From NCBI RefSeq assembly GCF_041146795.1, contig NC_135176.1:19851786-19915785 (forward strand): a DNA stretch of 64,000 nucleotides, written 5' to 3'. The translations under genes and the position numbers were made by a program. A model generated the notes under the pieces. It did no database searches, was not told the DNA's origin, and worked only from the letters and a program-made list of their open reading frames with translations. This stretch comes from Maylandia zebra. Its lineage: Eukaryota; Chordata; Actinopteri; Cichliformes; Cichlidae. Within the stretch, counting starts at the first letter, position 1, and every line of letters starts with the position of its first letter. Shown piece by piece: positions 43,568 through 57,775 of the stretch.

Positions 43568-46059
43568 CAGTGGCTTGCGAAAGTATTCGGCCCCCTTGAA
43601 CTTTTCCACATTTTGTCACATTACAGCCACAAACATGAATCAATTTTATTGGAATTCCACGTGAAAGACCAACACAAAGCGGTGTACACGTGAGAAGTGG
43701 AACGAAAATCATACATGATTCCGAACATTTTTTACAAATAAATAACTGAAAAGTGGGGTGTGCGTAATTATTCAGCCCCCTTTGGTCTGAGTGCAGTCAG
43801 TTGAACATAGACCTTGCCTGATGAGTGCTAATGACTAAATAGAGTGCACCTGTGTGTAATCTAATGTCAGTACAAATACAGCTGCTCTGTGACGCCTCAG
43901 AGGTTGTCTAAGAGAATATGAACACCATGAAGTCCAAAGAACATACCAGACAGGTCAGGGATAAAGTTATTGAGAAATTCAAAGCAGGCTTAGGCTACAA
44001 AAAGATTTCCCAAGCCTTGAACATCCCACGGAGCACTGTTCAAGCGATCATTCAGAAATGGAAGGAGTATGGTACAACTGTAAACCTACCAAGACAAGGC
44101 CGTCCACCTAAACTCACAGGCCGAACGAGGAGAGCACTAGGGCTGCCACAAACGATTATTTTGATAGTCGACTAATCACCGATTATTTTTGCGATTAGTC
44201 GACTAATCAGATCATCATCCATTGGACGTAAAACGTACAGCTTATTGCACCAGCAGCATCTGCTCTTATATAACTATCATTAGCTTACAGCTTTAAGTGT
44301 TTAAGGTATGTGCTAACTAAAAATAAAGACAAGACGATAGTTTGTTTCGGTGAAGTTTAATAAACTCCTTGCTATCTAAAATATAACAGGACACCGGAGT
44401 AGATTCTCCAGCATCTCACACTTCTGATAATCAGTTGTCTGCTTGACGTTTATTCAGCTGTGTAAAAACTATAACTTTAATCTCAGCCAAACAGATTTAC
44501 TCAGGAACAAATAAAATACTAAAAAAAAAAAAAAAAAAGCCAAACAATAACATTTTTAAGTTATCTAAGTGACTCATATGTTTAACCTGAGTAGCGAAAG
44601 ACGGCGGTGGGTTTGAAAACGATTTGCCGGGAGTCCGGTGTTCTCACGGCTCTAGTTAGCCTAGCCCCCGGCTAGCTATCGAGCTAGTGGGTAACAGACG
44701 TCTCCGAAAACGTCGAGCGCTTTTGAAAATATGCGGTGTCTTGATAAACTGAGCAGATATTTAAGGTTTCCACAGCTACATTCCCGCCTGAAAATATGTT
44801 AAACGTTTATTTTGTGACCCAGAAAGAATAATAAGAGTAATATTAAAACTAACTAGCTGCCGCCATTGTTGGAAACTGAGCTGGGCCGCGCTATGAATTC
44901 TGGGACACAGCTTCTTCTTCTTCGGGGTTTAACGGCAGCTGGCATCCTTGTACATGCAGTGCTGCCATGCCATCTTCTGTTTCAATCCGTTATTACACTC
45001 TTAAATCCTACTACATATTCCTGCGTCTTTTGTGATCTTACAAAGCTTCAAACGACGCGTCGACTATTAAATCAGTCGTCGACGATTTTGATAGTCGACG
45101 TAATCGTGACTAGTCGACTAATCGTGGCAGCCCTAGAGAGCACTGATCAGAAATGCAGCCAAGAGGCCCATGGTGACTCTGAACGAGCTGCAGAGATCTA
45201 CAGCTCAGGTGGGGGAATCTGTCCATAGGACAACTATTAGTTGTGCACTGCACAAAGTTGGCCTTTATGGAAGAGTGGCAAGAAGAAAGCAGTTAACAGA
45301 AAACAATAAAGTCCCATTTGCAGTTTGCCACAAGCCATGTGGGGGACACAGCAAAAATGTGGACGAAGGTGCTCTGGTCAGATGAAAACAAAATGCAAAA
45401 CACTATGTGTGGTGGAAAACTAACACTGCACATCACTCTGAACACACCATCCCCACTGTCAAATATGGTGGTGGCAGCATCATGCTCTGGGGGTGCTTCT
45501 CTTCAGCAGGGACAGGGAAGCTGGTCAGAGTTGATGGGAAGATGGAGCCAAATACAGGGAATCTTGGAAGAAAACCTCTTGGAGTCTGCAAAAGACTTGA
45601 GACTGGGGCGGAGGTTCACCTTCCAGCAGGACAACGATCCTAAACATAAAGCCAGGGCAACAATGGAATGGTTTAAAACAAAACATATCCATGTGTTAGA
45701 ATGGCCCAGTCAAAGTCCAGATCTAAATCCAATCGAGAATCTGTGGCAAGATCTGAAAACTGCTGTTCACAAATGCTGTCCATCTAATCTGACTGAGTTG
45801 GAGCTTATTTGCAAAGAAGAATGGGCAAGGATTTCAGTCTGTAGATGTGCAAAGCTGGTAGAGACATGCCCTAAAAGACTGGCAGCTGGAATTGCAGCGA
45901 AAGGTGGTTCTACAAAGTATTGACTCAGGGGGCTGAATAATTACGCACACCCCACTTTTCAGTTATTTATTTGTAAAAAATGTTTGGAATCATGTATGAT
46001 TTTAATTCCACTTCTCACGTGTACACCACTTTGCGTTGGCCTTTCACGTGGAATTGCAA
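43568..46059 (+). mobile_element. Tc1 transposon, inactive, interrupted by a hAT element
   Basis: The left end is TA|CAGTGGCTTGCGAAAGTATT, with an inner inverted motif around GTGTGCGTAATTATTCAGCC that is mirrored at 45929-45950. The transposase begins at 43918 with MNTMKSKEHTRQVRDKVIEK. It has a helix-turn-helix (GLGYKKISQALNIPRSTVQA) and the GRPPKLT linker, then is cut at 44138 by a 998-bp element and resumes at 45136. The catalytic half (45318-45923) is frameshifted but retains [17 protein letters not shown] and [11 protein letters not shown] (D, D, E). The right inverted repeat stops near 46059 after TTTCACGTGGAATTG, so the outer end is lost. Confidence 0.9.
44138..45135. mobile_element. 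Non-autonomous hAT element (998 bp) inside the Tc1 transposase
   Basis: The ends are TAGGGCTGCCAC and GTGGCAGCCCTA, with subterminal GTCGACTAATC motifs at both sides. It is flanked by an exact 8-bp duplication GAGAGCAC (44130-44137 and 45136-45143). Removing the element and one duplication rejoins the Tc1 coding frame (RTRRALISNAA). No transposase is encoded. A half copy lies at 4686-5250. Confidence 0.92.
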
Positions 46060-46109
46060 CTTTAATTTAAGCAGTTTAACAAAAGTATTTCATTAACTGT
46101 TTAGGAACT

Positions 46110-47274
46110 TCGAGGATACTTGAGGGTGCATGGGAGTTTGCCCAACCAGTCTACATGTGTTTTGTGGACCTGGAGAAGGCATTCGACCGTGTCCCTCGGG
46201 GCGTCCTGTGGGAGGTGTTGCGCGAGTATGGGGTGTCTGGCCCATTGCTACGGGCCATTCAATCCCTATACAACCGTTGCAAGAGCTTGGTTCGCATTGC
46301 CGGCAATAAGTCGGACTCGTTCCCGGTGGGTGATGGGCTCCGCCAAGGCTGCCCTTTGTCTCCGGTTCTGTTCATAATTTTTATGGACAGGATTTCTAGG
46401 CGCAGCCAAGTGGCGGAGGGCTTTCGCTTTGGTGGCCTCAGAATCTCATCTCTGATTTTTGCGGATGATGTGGTTCTGTTGGCTTCATCGGGTGAGGGCC
46501 TCCAGCTCGCACTGGAGCGGTTCGCAGCCGAGTGTAACGCAGCGGGAATGAGGATCAGCACCTCCAAATCTGAGGCCATGGTTCTTAGCCGGAAAAGGGT
46601 GGAGTGCCCACTCCGGGTCGGGGATGAGTTCCTGCCCCAAGTGGAGGAGTTCAAGTATCTCGGGGTCTTGTTCGCGAGTGATGGGAGAAGGGAGCTGGAG
46701 ATCGACAGACGGATTGGGGCTGCGGCTGCAGTAATGCGGACGCTGCACCGGTCAGTCATGGTGAAGAGGGAGCTGAGTGTAAAAGCGAAGCTCTCAATTT
46801 ACCGGTCGATCTACGTCCCTACCCTCACCTATGGCCACGAGCTGTGGGTAGTGACCGAAAGAACGAGATCGCGGATACAAGCGGCGGAAATGAGCTTCCT
46901 CCGAAGGGTGGCTGGCCTCTCCCTTAGAGATAGGGTGAGAAGTTCGGCCATCCGGGAGGGGCTTAGAGTAGAGCAGCTGCTGCTCCACATCGAAAGGAGC
47001 CAGCTGAGGTGGTTCGGGCATCTGGCAAGGATGCCCCCTGGGCGCCTCCTGGGCGAGGTGTTCCAGGCATGTCCCACCGGGAGGAGGCCCCGGGGCAGAC
47101 CCAGGACACGCTGGAGAGATTATATCTCTCGGCTGGCCTGGGAACGCCTTGGTATTCCCCCGGACAAGCTGGAGGAGGTGGCTGGGGAGAGGGAGGTCTG
47201 GACCTCTTTGCTTAGGCTGCTACCCCCGCGACCCGACCTCGGATAAGCGGATGAAGATGGATGGATGGATGGAT
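46110..47274 (+). mobile_element. 5'-truncated Rex3/RTE-type LINE with open reverse-transcriptase frame
   Basis: Beginning inside the reverse transcriptase (CFVDLEKAFDRVPRGVLWEV), the frame is open for 363 codons (46155-47246). It includes GLRQGCPLSPVLF, the catalytic FADDVVLL box, a thumb region and a C-terminal part ending [11 protein letters not shown] short 3' end closes with (GATG)n. An 11-bp duplication GTTTAGGAACT flanks it (46099-46109 and 47275-47285). The endonuclease and the N-terminal part are missing, so it cannot move by itself. The intact frame and match to 17459-18093 indicate a young insertion. Confidence 0.9.
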
Positions 47275-47285
47275 GTTTAGGAACT

Positions 47286-48972
47286 ATGAATATTTTATTA
47301 CACAGTCAGCCATTCCAGAGGCTCAAAAGTAATCGTACAGACATACAAATATAACTGGATTGTTTTAAAAGGTTGTTTGAAAATCATTTGCAGTCATTCT
47401 CTCCCTAAACCCTATATCCAACGGACCAATGTCTTTGTGAAAAAAATTATAGACCTAACTGTACGCGCCCACTCATGTGTGTCTGTGCTATGAGCCATAA
47501 TTTATATTTCTTGTTAAAATATTAAGCAATGAATTTAATTCCTAAAAAAAAAATCAGATGGTACATTTTGAATAAAGACCAGCCTCCGATGTCGTGTTTT
47601 TCTCATCTTGCACTCTATTTGTTGTGGTTAAATGTTTTGACTCGGAGTTTCATCAGAGTCTCCATACGAGCTAAACAAATACCTCATCTCTCTTACTCTC
47701 ACTCTACTGCTCAACTACTGGCAGCTTAGCTTCATCTTCACTGCATTCAAGTGGCCTTCAGCAGGACTGACTGAGAAACATTGTGTGTGCGTTGCAGCAG
47801 GAGGTCAAGGAAAAAAGGACAGAACGTGTGTGTGTGTGTTCATGCAGAAGACATCCTCTCACACGGGGTAATATTTGGACATTTGAAGACTATTTTCATA
47901 ACTTTTCAAGCTGATTCGGCCTCCCACAACTTGTGGTGACCACCCACACAATGACCCTTCACTGCCAACAACAAACATGCACACTCGCATGTTCAAAACA
48001 ACACCAGTGCACACACATCGCTGTGCAAATAGTATGTATGCAGGGCCTTCTTGTTCTTGCACTCTCATGATAAACACGATACATGTCTGCCTCATTGCAT
48101 ACACAAATCAGACTCACTACTAGATGTAAGATGTTTATATATGTGTTTTGTACAATAGGTTACAAAACTTGGACAACTTCAGGGATGATATAACTGGTTT
48201 TAAATGTCCCAAACCACAATGACTGCATTTTTTAATTTATGTCACTAATGTAGCCATAATATAATTCAATAAAGTCATATTTTCAGCCAAAGCTTTTATT
48301 TTTAATCATTATTGTTTCATCAAAACACCTTAAAGTGAGGTTAGATGTTCCAGTTAGCTCTACATCTCTGTCGTGTTTATCTTCTTTTGCTTTGATTTCT
48401 ACTAGATATCAATAAGTAAACATGTTTTTTTTTTATGATTCAGTTGAACATCTATAGATGATCACACGTATCACAAGTACTGTATTGATAGACAGGAGGA
48501 TGGCGGAGGATGACCAATGGATCTTACACAGTGCAAACATACACATGGTGCAAGCGTGTGGATCAGTCACCTGCCGAAAACAAGGAGTAAAATCAATAAT
48601 ATTAGCCGCAGTGACACACAAACACACTCACACACTAAGCCGACTGACTGACTTTAGGATTAAAGCCAGAGTTCATCGAGGATTTCAGAGTGACGGGGCT
48701 TCTCTTCAATGAAAACTGTAAGCACAAGAATCCCAGAGGAAGGGACACTGCTGCATAAACTTGGATGCTGATGATGCACATGACAAAAAAACATGTTTGA
48801 GTTCTTTTTCAATTTTTGCTCCTATAGTTTTGATGGTGTTTTTCCAGTACAGAATAACCATTCATGGTTTATGTATGTACCACACATACACTGCTGCATT
48901 TTTTGGCAACGATTTTCAATTAACACAACCGATTAGCAGTATAAATGTTGGGAATGGTGACAGCCCGTGCAC
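47286..48972. other. Gene-free interval
   Basis: AT-rich sequence with short GT and CA runs (about 47827-47840, 48618-48635). No exon, RNA gene or repeat family was recognised. Confidence 0.45.
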
Positions 48973-49416
48973 AGAAGACTATAGTGGACAAAAATATATT
49001 AGATCCGTAGTGGTTTAGGACTCCCAAAGAGAACGAATTGGAAACAGTTTCGATAAATGGTAGATAGATTCGTTCTTATATAGCACTTTTCTATTCTACC
49101 TGAGCACTCAAAGCGCTGTCCAGGGAGAGTTTTGAAGCTACGGTTTAGAAAAGAGCACTAACTGTCATGTGTTTGAATATTGTTTAATTCCTGAGTCTGT
49201 TCAAGGAAACCTGAAACATTAAGCAGTTGAGGACGTTCCCAAGGATGTCACAGTCTGACGTTTAACATTAAGAATAAAAAGATATTGCCTCCCCGTCGGG
49301 GAATCGAACCCTTTAGCTAAACGGCCTAAACCGTTTCCCATTCATTCTCTATGGTAGTGCTAAACCACCACGGATGTAATATATTTTTGGCCACTACGGT
49401 CTTCCGGCGCTGTTGC
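48973..49416. repeat. Fold-back derivative of the tRNA-Asp repeat unit
   Basis: The left part (48973-49288) is in the same orientation as the units at 53-55 kb: AGAAGACTATAGTGGACAAA, AGCACTCAAAGCGCTGTCC, GAGGACGTTCCCAAGGA. It runs into a truncated tRNA-Asp (49289-49311). The next part (49331-49416) is an inverted copy of the unit start, containing CCACCACGGATGTAATATAT and CGGCGCTGTTGC. The two arms (48973-49052 and 49331-49404) could pair, with about 280 bp between them. Confidence 0.8.
49289..49311 (-). pseudogene. tRNA-Asp 3' fragment
   Basis: The minus strand reads GGGTTCGATTCCCCGACGGG then GAG, identical to the T-arm and acceptor 3' strand of the intact tRNA-Asp genes at 53-55 kb. Everything 5' of the T-arm is replaced by an inverted unit segment. 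A T5 terminator remains downstream. Confidence 0.85.
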
Positions 49417-52585: not shown

Positions 52586-53442
52586 CTGAAACGCAGAAGC
52601 AGAAGAGCAACAGATTTAAACCATGCTCGGTGAAGGCAGGCAAGAGCATGACTGGAATAAAGTAATGATGTCAGTACTGAGTTTGTGCTGGAAAATGAAT
52701 AGATATAAACTAACAGTTTATAGTTTTAGCTTTAGTCTTTGTATTAAAAGTTGGATGTGTGCATAATTGTAGACTATATGTCTGGTATGTATCATCTCAA
52801 AACTGTGATGATACAGATTAGTCTGAGTTATGTAGTAATGCAGGAAAATTGTTCCACAGGCCATAACACTATATAATATAAACAAAATGATAATCAAATA
52901 ATAAGAAAAAGCAAAGTGAAAAATAAATGTTACCCACAATAAGTAAATTGAAAATGGTGTTTAACTTTTGATAATGTAACACAACCTTTGTCCCAACCAG
53001 GACTCGAACCCGCGCTCAGACAGTTCAGTGTAAAAAAAAACCCCAAACTCTTTTTTTTTTCCCCCAATGCCCGAAAAGCTGCCATTTGATTGGCTGTTTC
53101 TCCGTTTAACCTATACGCGATGGGCCAACTCTATCCACAGTGGGCTAGTATTGCCGTTTCCCCGTTTTGATACGTTAAGTTGTGCACGCCTGTAATGTAT
53201 ATGACGTTTTATGGTAGATGGATTAGTTCTTATATAGCACTTTTCTTTTCTACCTGAGCACTCAAAGCGCTGTCGAGGGAGAGTTTTAAAGCTACAGTTT
53301 AGAAAAGTTCAGTAACTGTCATGTGTTTGAATATTGTTTGATTCCTGAGTCTGTTCAAGGAAACCTGAAACATTAAGCAGTTGAGGACGTTCCCAAGGAC
53401 GTCACAGTCTGACGTTTAACATCAAGAACAAAAAGATATTGC

Positions 53443-53514
53443 CTCCCCGTCGGGGAATCGAACCCCGGTCTCCCGCGTGACAGGCGGGGATACTCACCAC
53501 TATACTAACGAGGA
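53443..53514 (-). tRNA. tRNA-Asp(GTC), copy 1
   Basis: The 72-nt minus-strand sequence begins TCCTCGTTAGTATAGTGGTG and ends GGGTTCGATTCCCCGACGGG then GAG. This is the canonical vertebrate cytosolic tRNA-Asp. The anticodon GTC is the complement of 53479-53481. The A and B boxes are intact, the acceptor stem pairs TCCTCGT with ACGGGGA, and a T5 Pol III terminator lies 8-13 bases downstream (AAAAA at 53430-53434). CCA is not encoded, as is normal. Confidence 0.96.
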
Positions 53515-54091
53515 AGGTGACATCGGACTCGTATGTTCCAGGACCGATCGTGACTCAACTATGTCCACAGTGGGATAGTATTGCCGTTTCCCCGTTTTGA
53601 TACGTTAAGTTGTGCACGCCTGTAATGTGTATCAAGTGTTACGTGCAAATAATAGCGGACAGAGATTATAATGACTAGAAGCCTCAACGCAGAGTTCTCT
53701 ACCGTCAACGAAAGAGACAAAACATCTTTCAAAACAACCATAATGAACGTATCACGTATAAACTACAACAGCGCCAGAAGACTATAGTGGACAAAAATAT
53801 ATTACATCCGTAGTGGTTTAGGACTCCCATTCCCAAGAATTGGAAACAGTTTCGGTAAATGGTAGATAGATTCGTTCTTATATAGCACTTTTCTATTCTA
53901 CCTGAGCACTCAAAGCGCTGTCGAGGGAGAGTTTTGAAGCTACGGTTTAGAAAAGAGCACTAACTGTCATGTGTTTGAATATTGTTTAATTCCTGAGTCT
54001 GTTCAAGGAAACCCTGAAACATTAAGCAGTTGAGGACGTTCCCAAGGACGTCACAGTCTGACGTTTAACATCAAGAATAAAAAGTTATTGC

Positions 54092-54163
54092 CTCCCCGTC
54101 GGGGAATCGAACCCCGGTCTCCCGCGTGACAGGCGGGGATACTCACCACTATACTAACGAGGA
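54092..54163 (-). tRNA. tRNA-Asp(GTC), copy 2
   Basis: Identical in the tRNA body to copy 1, with intact internal promoter boxes and a T5 terminator downstream (AAAAA near 54078-54082). Its 5' flank differs from copy 1 (GTGTCATCGGACTCGTATGT, then TGCAGTACCGATCG) and matches copy 3. Confidence 0.96.
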
Positions 54164-54705
54164 AGGTGTCATCGGACTCGTATGTTGCAGTACCGATCGT
54201 GACCCAACTATGTCTTCAGCGTGGTAGTATCTCTGTTTCCCTCGTTTTGATATCAAGTTTTACGTGTAAATAATAGAGATTATAATGACTAGAAGCCTCA
54301 ACGCAGAGTTCTCTACCGTCAACGAAAGAGACAAAACATCTTTCAAAACAACCATAATGAACGTATCACGTATAAACTACAACAGCGCCAGAAGACTATA
54401 GTGGACAAAAATATATTACACCCGTAGTGGTTTAGGACTCCCATAGAGAAGGAATTGGAAACAGTTTCGGTAAATGGTAGATAGATTCGTTCTTATATAG
54501 CACTTTTCTATTCTACCTGAGCACTCAAAGCGCTGTCCAGGGAGAGTTTTGAAGCTACGGTTTAGAAAAGAGCACTAACTGTCATGTGTTTGAATATTGT
54601 TTAATTCCTGAGTCTGTTCAAGGAAACCTGAAACATTAAGCAGTTGAGGACGTTCCTAAGGACGTCACAGTCTGACGTTTAACATCAAGAATAAAAAGTT
54701 ATTGC

Positions 54706-54777
54706 CTCCCCGTCGGGGAATCGAACCCCGGTCTCCCGCGTGACAGGCGGGGATACTCACCACTATACTAACGAGGA
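54706..54777 (-). tRNA. tRNA-Asp(GTC), copy 3
   Basis: Identical tRNA body, boxes and terminator to copy 2, including flanks on both sides. The pair is the youngest duplication of the array. Confidence 0.96.
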
Positions 54778-55319
54778 AGGTGTCATCGGACTCGTATGTT
54801 GCAGTACCGATCGTGACCCAACTATGTCTTCAGCGTGGTAGTATCTCTGTTTCCCTCGTTTTGATATCAAGTTTTACGTGTAAATAATAGAGATTATAAT
54901 GACTAGAAGCCTCAACGCAGAGTTCTCTACCGTCAACGAAAGAGACAAAACATCTTTCAAAACAACCATAATGAACGTATCACGTATAAACTACAACAGC
55001 GCCAGAAGACTATAGTGGACAAAAATATATTACACCCGTAGTGGTTTAGGACTCCCATAGAGAAGGAATTGGAAACAGTTTCGGTAAATGGTAGATAGAT
55101 TCGTTCTTATATAGCACTTTTCTATTCTACCTGAGCACTCAAAGCGCTGTCCAGGGAGAGTTTTGAAGCTACGGTTTAGAAAAGAGCACTAACTGTCATG
55201 TGTTTGAATATTGTTTAATTCCTGAGTCTGTTCAAGGAAACCTGAAACATTAAGCAGTTGAGGACGTTCCCAAGGACGTCACAGTCTGACGTTTAACATT
55301 GAGAATAAAAAGATAGTGC

Positions 55320-55391
55320 CTCCCCGTCGGGGAATCGAACCCCGGTCTCCCGCGTGACAGGCGGGGATACTCACCACTATACTAACGAGGA
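55320..55391 (-). tRNA. tRNA-Asp(GTC), copy 4
   Basis: The tRNA body is identical to the others. The 3' trailer has one change (CACTATC in place of CAATATC) before the T5 terminator, and the 5' flank reads GTGTCACCGGAGTCTTATGT. Its unit is the last complete one before the inserted element at 55722. Confidence 0.96.
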
Positions 55392-55721
55392 AGGTGTCAC
55401 CGGAGTCTTATGTTGCAGTACCAATCGTGACTCAACTATGTCCACAGTGGGATAGCCTGTAATGCATATCAAGTTTTACGTGCAAATAATAGCGGACAGA
55501 GATTATAATGACTAGAAGCCTCAACGCAAAGTTCTCTATCGTCAACGAAAGAGACTAAACCTCTTCCAAAACAACCATAATGAACGAATCATGTATAAAG
55601 TCGAAACAGCGCCAAAAGACAATAGTGGACAGAAATATATTACATCCGTAGTGGTTTAGGACTCCCATAGCGAAGGACTTGGAAACTGTTTCGGTAAATG
55701 GTAGATGGATTAGTCCTTATA

Positions 55722-57503
55722 CAGTGGCGGAGCGGGGGGGGGGGGGGGGGGGGGGGGGGGTGGCTTACTGGGCTTAAGCCCGGGTTGTTTTTTCAGAAGC
55801 CCGGGGTCTTTTGGAGTGTATGAACATAAGGAGCTTCTTTCAAAGAAAAAACTCTGGTAAATGTTATTTCATATATTATGCTTTGTATGTTGTTCAGTAT
55901 ATTTCTATGCAAAACAAGAGGAATTTCAATACACAGTATATTCACAATTTAAACCAGATATTTACATACACTTTATGGAAAACGCAAGAACATTTTTTTT
56001 CTGTACAACATCAATTTAGAGTAAACTTGTTTTGTTTTGGATAAATAAATATTGAAATATCTTTTGAATTAGTTAAATGTCAGAATAAAGAGAGACAGGG
56101 CTGTCTATTTTTTGTCACCTTCATCAAATTTAGGAGTACATGTACACTAAGTTTATTGTTAATTAATAAGAAAACTTCAGACGATTCCATTCTGAGCTGA
56201 AGAAGCTTCTGATAGGTTAGTAGAGTCCATGTGAGTAAATTGGTGGCACACCTGTGGATGCATATAAGGCAAAACACAGAGCCTGTTTCTTCGAAATGGG
56301 AAAATCAGACTGCAGGTCATAACTTCTTACCTGAAGTTCAGTTCACCTGACACTCGGACCGGCGGCTGCCTCGGGTCTCTCCTCCTGCCTCCCCTTCCCT
56401 CATCCACCTGCTGGCCTCTGTGGAAGCCCCGCCATAGCCACCACCAAACAACTGAGTTATTTTTACACATCGACCTGCATCTGGCCAATCCACCACCTCT
56501 CATTGTTCATGCCATTACAAAAAAAAAAAAAAAAAAGTCACTGGGCATATGCCCGGTATGCCCGATGGCCAGTCCAGCTATGTTAACCTGCAACCAAATC
56601 TGCAGCTCCATACAGCAATGTTACGACTTAGATTACATCTTATAACTCATAACTCTTATGTTAGCTGCCCTCAGTAGCATACTGTCTGATATATTCAACG
56701 GCTGCAATAATTCTTTAAGTGTAATTTTTTCCTTGGTATTCTAATTTCACCGAAGTTTACTAAACTCAACAAACTTAATATTACTTACCTGGACATTTAT
56801 TCTGTTCTCATTTTCTTTCACTGAAAAATTGTTTCCTGTAGTGCCGTCTTTCGTGCTTGGCTCTCCTACCTTTGCTAACTACCTTTGCTAACATGATGCA
56901 CATAGCGCAGAAGCCGATGCTGCATTCACTTACATTCGGATATCTGAGCTTCACCGTGAAAACATAATCGGACATTTGATATTTGATTGAATTTTATTGT
57001 TTTGCCTTTGGGGTGGCACCTGGAGTGGCCAGTCTGGTTGGGGGTGGCCTGTGCCCCCCCAGGCCACCCCGCTGGACACACCACTGGTGGAAGGCAACAA
57101 CTGAAAATATGAAATAAACACACATGTAAGCTGAGACTCTCTAAAGAGACAGAGTTGTTGTTTGGCTTTTCATTTCGCCATTTGTTGATTCACTCGAAGA
57201 GCAAGTAATGTAATATGGGTCAAGTGATCTGTTTGACATCAATCTTTTGTGATACACCATCATATTTGCATTATTTGTACAGTACGAATGATTTGCCTTG
57301 GTACCTGGTCAAACTTCAGTTCTCCTCTGTCTGCCTGGCTGCGCTTCTCCAAGAGCGCACTCGCAGTGCTTCAAATATTGTGTGTAGTTTTTGTTTTGTC
57401 AGCCAGGCATCTAACTATGAAAAAAATACACTCCAAAAGACCCCGGGCTTCTGAAAAAACAACCCGGGCTTAAGCCCAGTAAGCCACCCCCGCTCCGCCA
57501 CTG
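55722..57503. mobile_element. 1.8-kb inverted-repeat DNA element inserted in a tRNA-Asp unit
   Basis: About 90 bp at each end are inverted copies: CAGTGGCGGAGC, a G-run, then TGGCTTACTGGGCTTAAGCC and CGGGTTGTTTTTTCAGAAGC on the left, mirrored at 57414-57503. Inside are two further GC-rich pieces of similar style: GGGCATATGCCCGGTATGCC near 56543, and a CCAGTCTGGTTGGGGGTGGC region with a CACCACTG end near 57025-57086. This suggests a composite of related elements. No transposase ORF was found. About 190 bp of the tRNA unit is missing at the insertion, so no clean target duplication can be seen. Confidence 0.75.
55734..55760. repeat. 27-base poly-G run
   Basis: An uninterrupted G run inside the left terminal repeat of the 55722-57503 element. 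The right terminal repeat has only five C at the mirrored place (CCACCCCCGCTCC), so the run expanded after insertion or is poorly determined by sequencing. Confidence 0.95.
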
Positions 57504-57566
57504 GTTAAGGACCTTCCCAAGGATGTCACAGTCTGACTTTCAACATTATGAATGAAAACGTATTGC

Positions 57567-57624
57567 CTCCCCGTCAGGGAATCGAACCCCAGTTTCCCGC
57601 GTGACAGGCGGGGATACTCACCAC
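57567..57624 (-). pseudogene. tRNA-Asp pseudogene, 5' truncated
   Basis: The minus strand retains the anticodon arm, variable loop, T-arm and 3' acceptor strand of tRNA-Asp. The 5' acceptor strand and first part of the D-arm (beyond 57624) are replaced by unrelated sequence. There are substitutions in the T-stem and acceptor 3' side (GTCAGGG, CCCCAGT, GTTTCCC on the plus strand), and the terminator is reduced to TTTT. Confidence 0.9.
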
Positions 57625-57775
57625 CAAACATGACTGTATAAATTTGCAACAGCGCCAGAAGACTATAGTGGACAAAGAATATATTACATTCGTAGTGGTT
57701 TAGGACTCCCATAGAGAATGAATTGGAAAGTTCGGGACCGTTTAGGTACATGGAAGATGGACCCGTTCTTATTAG

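Follow-up and report, generated by a model that had tools for sequence, protein, structure and literature searches.

A homogeneous cluster of tRNA-Asp(GTC) genes in Maylandia zebra with a recent centre and older edges

Introduction

The organization of tRNA genes in clusters varies widely among fishes. Clusters hold 87% of the tRNA genes and pseudogenes of stickleback and 65% of those of zebrafish and are reported to turn over fast, while three further teleosts show comparatively little clustering; teleost clusters reach fifty and more members (Bermudez-Santana et al., 2010; PMC2888827). A much larger tandem organization has been described at human 1q23.3, where a tRNA variable number tandem repeat is made of 7.3-kb units, with 9-43 of them per allele (Darrow and Chadwick, 2014; PMC4041453). 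Mouse strains have likewise been reported to gain and lose tRNA genes (PMC13169703). Regarding tRNA-Asp itself, the 72-nt AspGTC sequence found in the present work occurs in exactly the same form at 11 human loci (PMC4694795), and the human tRNA Asp GTC 2-1 has the same body sequence with added ends (PMC12217144).

Here we describe a tandem array of tRNA-Asp(GTC) genes in a 64,000-nt stretch of the Maylandia zebra genome (C10:19851786-19915785, hereafter the window), taken from an assembly of 962 Mb in 63 contigs. The array is very probably a homogeneous cluster of functional nuclear genes, predicted to be transcribed by Pol III, which would have spread by tandem duplication while selection acted on the tRNA body.

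Anatomy of the Array

Searching the 64-kb window from end to end, ARAGORN identified four tRNA-Asp(gtc) genes, all on the minus strand (Table 1). The Rfam model RF00005 recovers the same four with 59.4 bits each, against a gathering score of 29, and all of them have a cloverleaf and the anticodon GTC. Neither method found any further tRNA gene above threshold in the window. The genes, numbered n1 to n4 from the head of the array to its tail, are arranged head to tail with start-to-start spacings, in order of increasing coordinate, of 649, 614 and 614. Each is followed by a T5 run that starts 8 nt past the gene end and represents a Pol III terminator (4/4 genes), and the 72-nt bodies show no difference in any of the six pairwise comparisons. 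The original prediction of four identical minus-strand genes with one T5 each, set in tandem units of 610-650 bp, is borne out by these data. The array end that it gave, 55721, is exact, as a transposon-like insert starts at 55722, and its array start, 53213, falls within two bases of the point at which inter-unit similarity ends (53211).

Weak U6atac and WsnRNA59 matches in the window were disregarded, their scores being under the respective gathering scores. The window also contains a stanniocalcin exon and further kinds of repeats, among them reverse transcriptase and DDE transposase sequences. An RVT_1 reverse-transcriptase ORF and a DDE transposase fragment are located at 46080-47246 and 45297-45923, at lower coordinates than the array.

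Table 1. Features of the tRNA-Asp array, its surroundings and the large array on C8 (window coordinates unless another contig is given)
Feature	Coordinates	Strand	Evidence and remarks
tRNA-Asp(GTC) gene n1, head unit	55320..55391	-	ARAGORN; RF00005, 59.4 bits; T5 downstream
tRNA-Asp(GTC) gene n2	54706..54777	-	ARAGORN; RF00005, 59.4 bits; T5 downstream
tRNA-Asp(GTC) gene n3	54092..54163	-	ARAGORN; RF00005, 59.4 bits; T5 downstream
tRNA-Asp(GTC) gene n4, tail unit	53443..53514	-	ARAGORN; RF00005, 59.4 bits; T5 downstream
Most recent duplication or homogenisation	54044..55270	-	54044-54656 and 54658-55270 identical base for base, 613 nt
Two adjoining short dispersed repeat fragments in spacer	54380..54547 (coordinates of one unit)	-	~90 nt, then ~65-80 nt; genome matches
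Decayed fifth unit, array head	57504..57772	-	Same orientation as array; RF00005, 21.3 bits, under gathering score of 29
Transposon-like insert with inverted ends	55722..57503	.	Inverted arms and junctions; splits decayed unit from array
Tail fragment holding only upstream flank of another unit	53126..53211	-	92% identical to 53556-53641
Truncated local copy, 4 kb from array	48972..49311	-	Last 23 nt of tRNA plus spacer, 97.6% identical to array
Tandem tRNA array, ~103 kb	C8:28504893-28608050	Gln on opposite strand	191 ARAGORN genes

Age of the Duplication

The central part of the array carries the trace of its latest duplication or homogenisation. At a shift of 614, the sequence matches itself over 613 consecutive bases (Table 1). 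How this identity is distributed between the units depends on how they are cut. If each gene is grouped with the spacer upstream of it, n2 and n3 show just 5 differences in 614 sites. If it is grouped with the downstream spacer instead, the same pair shows 21 mismatches in 612 positions and a further 39 positions with gaps; the pair with 5/614 is then n1 and n2, whose differences all lie inside 46 nt (54657-54702). The claim that units 2 and 3 match almost completely along their entire length is thus correct for the former cut and not for the latter.

The picture is different on the upstream side of n1, at the head, and n4, at the tail. The 320 nt preceding these two genes are at K2P distances of 0.097-0.128 from those of the central units as well as from each other. 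The downstream spacer of n1, in contrast, is only 0.021 (K2P) from those of n2 and n3, and the head edge of the array has therefore diverged on its outer side only, a point that counts against our reading of the locus. The corresponding distances for n4 are inflated, because its downstream spacer was taken with ~13 nt past the array end.

Tandem duplication, recent in the central units, is well supported by these comparisons. The centre of the array is recent and its outer sides are older, and the array overall is old. Regarding the recent amplification that had been proposed, it holds for the central units in view of their 613-nt identity, but not for the array as a whole, nor can the identical tRNA bodies be taken to indicate a recent origin. 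The human loci mentioned above have the same 72-mer, and in the array the bodies are identical although the upstream spacers differ by ~10%. The amplification can therefore be dated from the spacers only.

Conservation of the tRNA Body

Constraint on the tRNA was assessed in an alignment of n1, n3 and n4, n2 being omitted since its 260 upstream nt are those of n3. Among 499 ungapped columns, 45 are variable, all of them outside the 72 columns of the tRNA (hypergeometric P = 0.00063, assuming independent sites). When ~13 nt past the array end are included, all 53 variable columns among 519 again lie outside the tRNA (P = 0.00023), and the longest invariant run in that alignment reaches 82 columns (permutation P = 0.0032). 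This is the pattern that purifying selection on the tRNA body leaves, and gene conversion confined to the body would also fit. Unlike the intact bodies, the tRNA relic of the decayed unit has changes: its first 14 nt are unrecognisable, and three changes are present in the other 58.

No exact copies of the tRNA were found in viral and prokaryote collections, and the spacer motif was absent from the viral collection. Both results carry little weight, as these are not fish collections.

Edges of the Array

The array is larger and older than originally claimed, with a decayed fifth unit, a tail fragment and a truncated copy all lying beyond the range first assigned to it (Table 1). The tail fragment was presumably joined to the array end through a deletion. 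A 90-nt repeat that is also present in the spacer occurs in inverted form (49325-49415) next to the truncated copy, at a distance of 13 nt. A possible tRNA relic near 53000 (GGGTTCGAGTCC) was dropped, its match consisting of 12 positions including one mismatch.

The insert between the decayed unit and the array may be hAT-like, judging from its end motif CAGTG...CACTG, and no direct target-site duplication was seen at its junctions (55722, 57503). In a genome search with most of the insert as the query (40 of 3126 candidates scored), 39 of the 43 places among the matches listed are confined to a central stretch of ~780 nt, with 94-95% identity, which indicates that a many-copy repeat is nested within the insert. 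A run of 27 G on the plus strand (55734-55760) lies just within the insert edge that adjoins the array.

Relatives Elsewhere in the Genome

The whole array was compared with the genome (58 matches listed, 40 of 1175 candidates scored), and so was one spacer (52 matches listed, 40 of 988 candidates scored); the numbers of matches are lower bounds, and the search skips very common words. The matches listed for the array comprise those in the window, a cluster at C8:26.785-26.794 Mb, a 91-nt fragment on C2, a tRNA-Asp on C14 in which one base is changed, and the large array on C8.

The C8 cluster has spacers related to those of the window. ARAGORN found no tRNA gene in a copy of this cluster that lacked parts of its sequence, and a reading of the cluster as a collection of dead genes was dropped on account of these gaps. 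Two pairs of stretches within it are 97.0% identical over 707 nt and 98.1% over 309 nt, and its identity to the window's unit is mostly 68-91%. In a tree of the upstream flanks, with the four C10 units and five C8 segments (C8a-C8e), the C10 units are split from the C8 segments with a support of 1.000. Distances are 0-0.109 within C10, 0.022-0.082 among C8a, C8b and C8c, and 0.308-0.370 between C8a-c and C10, the last values being inflated by a barely alignable stretch in the C8a-c segments. C8d and C8e spoil the picture of a tidy homogenised C8 array and in this respect count against our reading of the locus: their distances, both to one another and to the remaining C8 segments, are 0.243-0.312, and C8e is nearer to C10 (0.222-0.251) than to C8a-c (0.265-0.269). 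Since C8a-c form a tight group and C8d and C8e remain outside it, homogenisation of the units is local and incomplete, which agrees with birth-and-death evolution plus occasional tandem duplication.

The large C8 array resembles that of the window in being tandem and in including tRNA-Asp(GTC), and differs from it in its mixed Val-Val-Gln-Asp units, mostly of 2051 bp (36 of 52 inter-unit spacings). ARAGORN assigns its genes to Gln(CTG) (52), Val(CAC) (46), Asp(GTC) (40), Val(TAC) (30) and Val(AAC) (23), the last two being alternatives in a single slot of the unit. Among the matches listed, those to the window array are of 72-86 nt and extend past the tRNA by ~11 nt at most, and the window spacer has no match there among those listed for it (40 of 988 candidates scored). 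One body is common to 34 of the 40 Asp genes and differs from that of the window at four sites. Its anticodon-stem changes are paired, a C-G pair having become T-A, and it therefore looks like a stable divergent isodecoder. The usual form of the T loop is GGTTCGA; the commonest Val bodies of this array have GGTCCGA instead. A T4 run is found within 40 nt downstream of all Asp (40/40) and Val(CAC) (46/46) genes, of 7 of the 53 Val(AAC/TAC) genes and of none of the 52 Gln genes. Many of the Gln and Val(AAC/TAC) genes may be inactive.

Alternative Explanations

A unit that carries a tRNA might be a mobile element, either a SINE headed by the tRNA or some other tRNA-carrying element inserted repeatedly, and the original prediction had named dispersed identical units as the observation that would point in this direction. 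The presence of two short dispersed fragments within the spacer, of a truncated copy 4 kb away and of related units on C8 could be seen as traces of such an element. No dispersed whole unit was found, though, among the matches listed for either the array or the spacer (40 of 1175 and 40 of 988 candidates, respectively). Those of the spacer include 9 from the window region and 11 from the C8 cluster, and all of the long ones are among these 20, so that no full-length dispersed copies as expected of a SINE or other mobile element are seen in this set. The remaining 32 are of only 62-91 nt each and all fall on two adjacent sub-segments, of which the first has 10 and the second 22. This indicates that the spacer holds two dispersed-repeat fragments, and no dispersal of the entire unit is seen among the matches listed. 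In addition, the array copies run head to tail in a single orientation at near-constant spacing, and the tRNA bodies are constrained, in contrast with SINE heads, which drift. A mobile origin of the unit is very improbable on these grounds. Inspection by eye showed no target-site duplication near the truncated copy. We hold it to be just as improbable that the near-identity of the central units stems from an assembly duplication, as 613 identical bases might suggest: 63 contigs for 962 Mb suggest that long reads were used, and these would span an array of less than 3 kb; moreover, five clustered differing sites lie just beyond the identical run, and the remaining units are clearly distinct.

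Gene conversion is harder to set apart from tandem duplication by unequal crossing-over, since the two leave much the same pattern. On the strongest version of this view, the central spacers would owe their identity to conversion among old units, with no new duplication. The differences between n1 and n2, five in number and clustered beside the identical run, form a mosaic of the kind that conversion tracts can leave, and the same process could account for some of the identity between spacers as well as for that of the bodies. The identical run nevertheless corresponds to one unit (613 for a period of 614), and a single duplication needs no added assumption. Conversion in place of a new duplication is therefore rather unlikely, and for part of the spacer identity it is a serious rival to tandem duplication.

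Origin and Function

According to the model that we favor, in which tandem duplication built the array, the unit of ~610-650 bp made of gene and spacer would have been multiplied by misaligned recombination. The newest units would be the central ones, and those at the edges would have accumulated changes, lost part of their sequence or been interrupted by the insert. Selection would preserve the tRNA body as the spacers drift. tRNA genes each have an internal promoter, and with its own T5 terminator every copy in the array is predicted from its sequence to be transcribed by Pol III and to be functional. The locus would then be a compact example of tRNA birth-and-death, in which constant bodies are set among drifting spacers, the centre is new, the edges decay and a related cluster exists on C8.

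Since the human tandem repeat varies between 9 and 43 units and mouse strains gain and lose tRNA genes, it is plausible by analogy that copy number in this array varies between individuals. One might speculate that the ordinary vertebrate tRNA-Asp of the fish comes mainly from the array in the window, perhaps with its C8 relative, and that the large C8 array supplies a divergent form from its 40 Asp genes. We regard this idea as quite doubtful; if it were true, copy number here would represent a real dosage setting for aspartate decoding.

Comparison with Known tRNA Clusters

The human 1q23.3 repeat resembles the present array in being a tRNA-bearing tandem repeat, and in its comparison with mouse only its tRNA genes and a CTCF site are reported as conserved. 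It is composed of 7.3-kb units whose variation in number has been demonstrated, whereas the array of the window has 0.6-kb units, four of them intact, in one assembly; a word search of the available text found no mention of Asp (Darrow and Chadwick, 2014; PMC4041453). A closer parallel is found in the homogeneous clusters of teleosts, defined as parallel genes of one isoacceptor within 1000 nt (Bermudez-Santana et al., 2010; PMC2888827). With its parallel Asp(GTC) genes and the spacings given above, the array fits this definition, and differs from those clusters in being small. Tandem tRNA clusters are well known in some fish, of which the array in the window is a clear but ordinary case.
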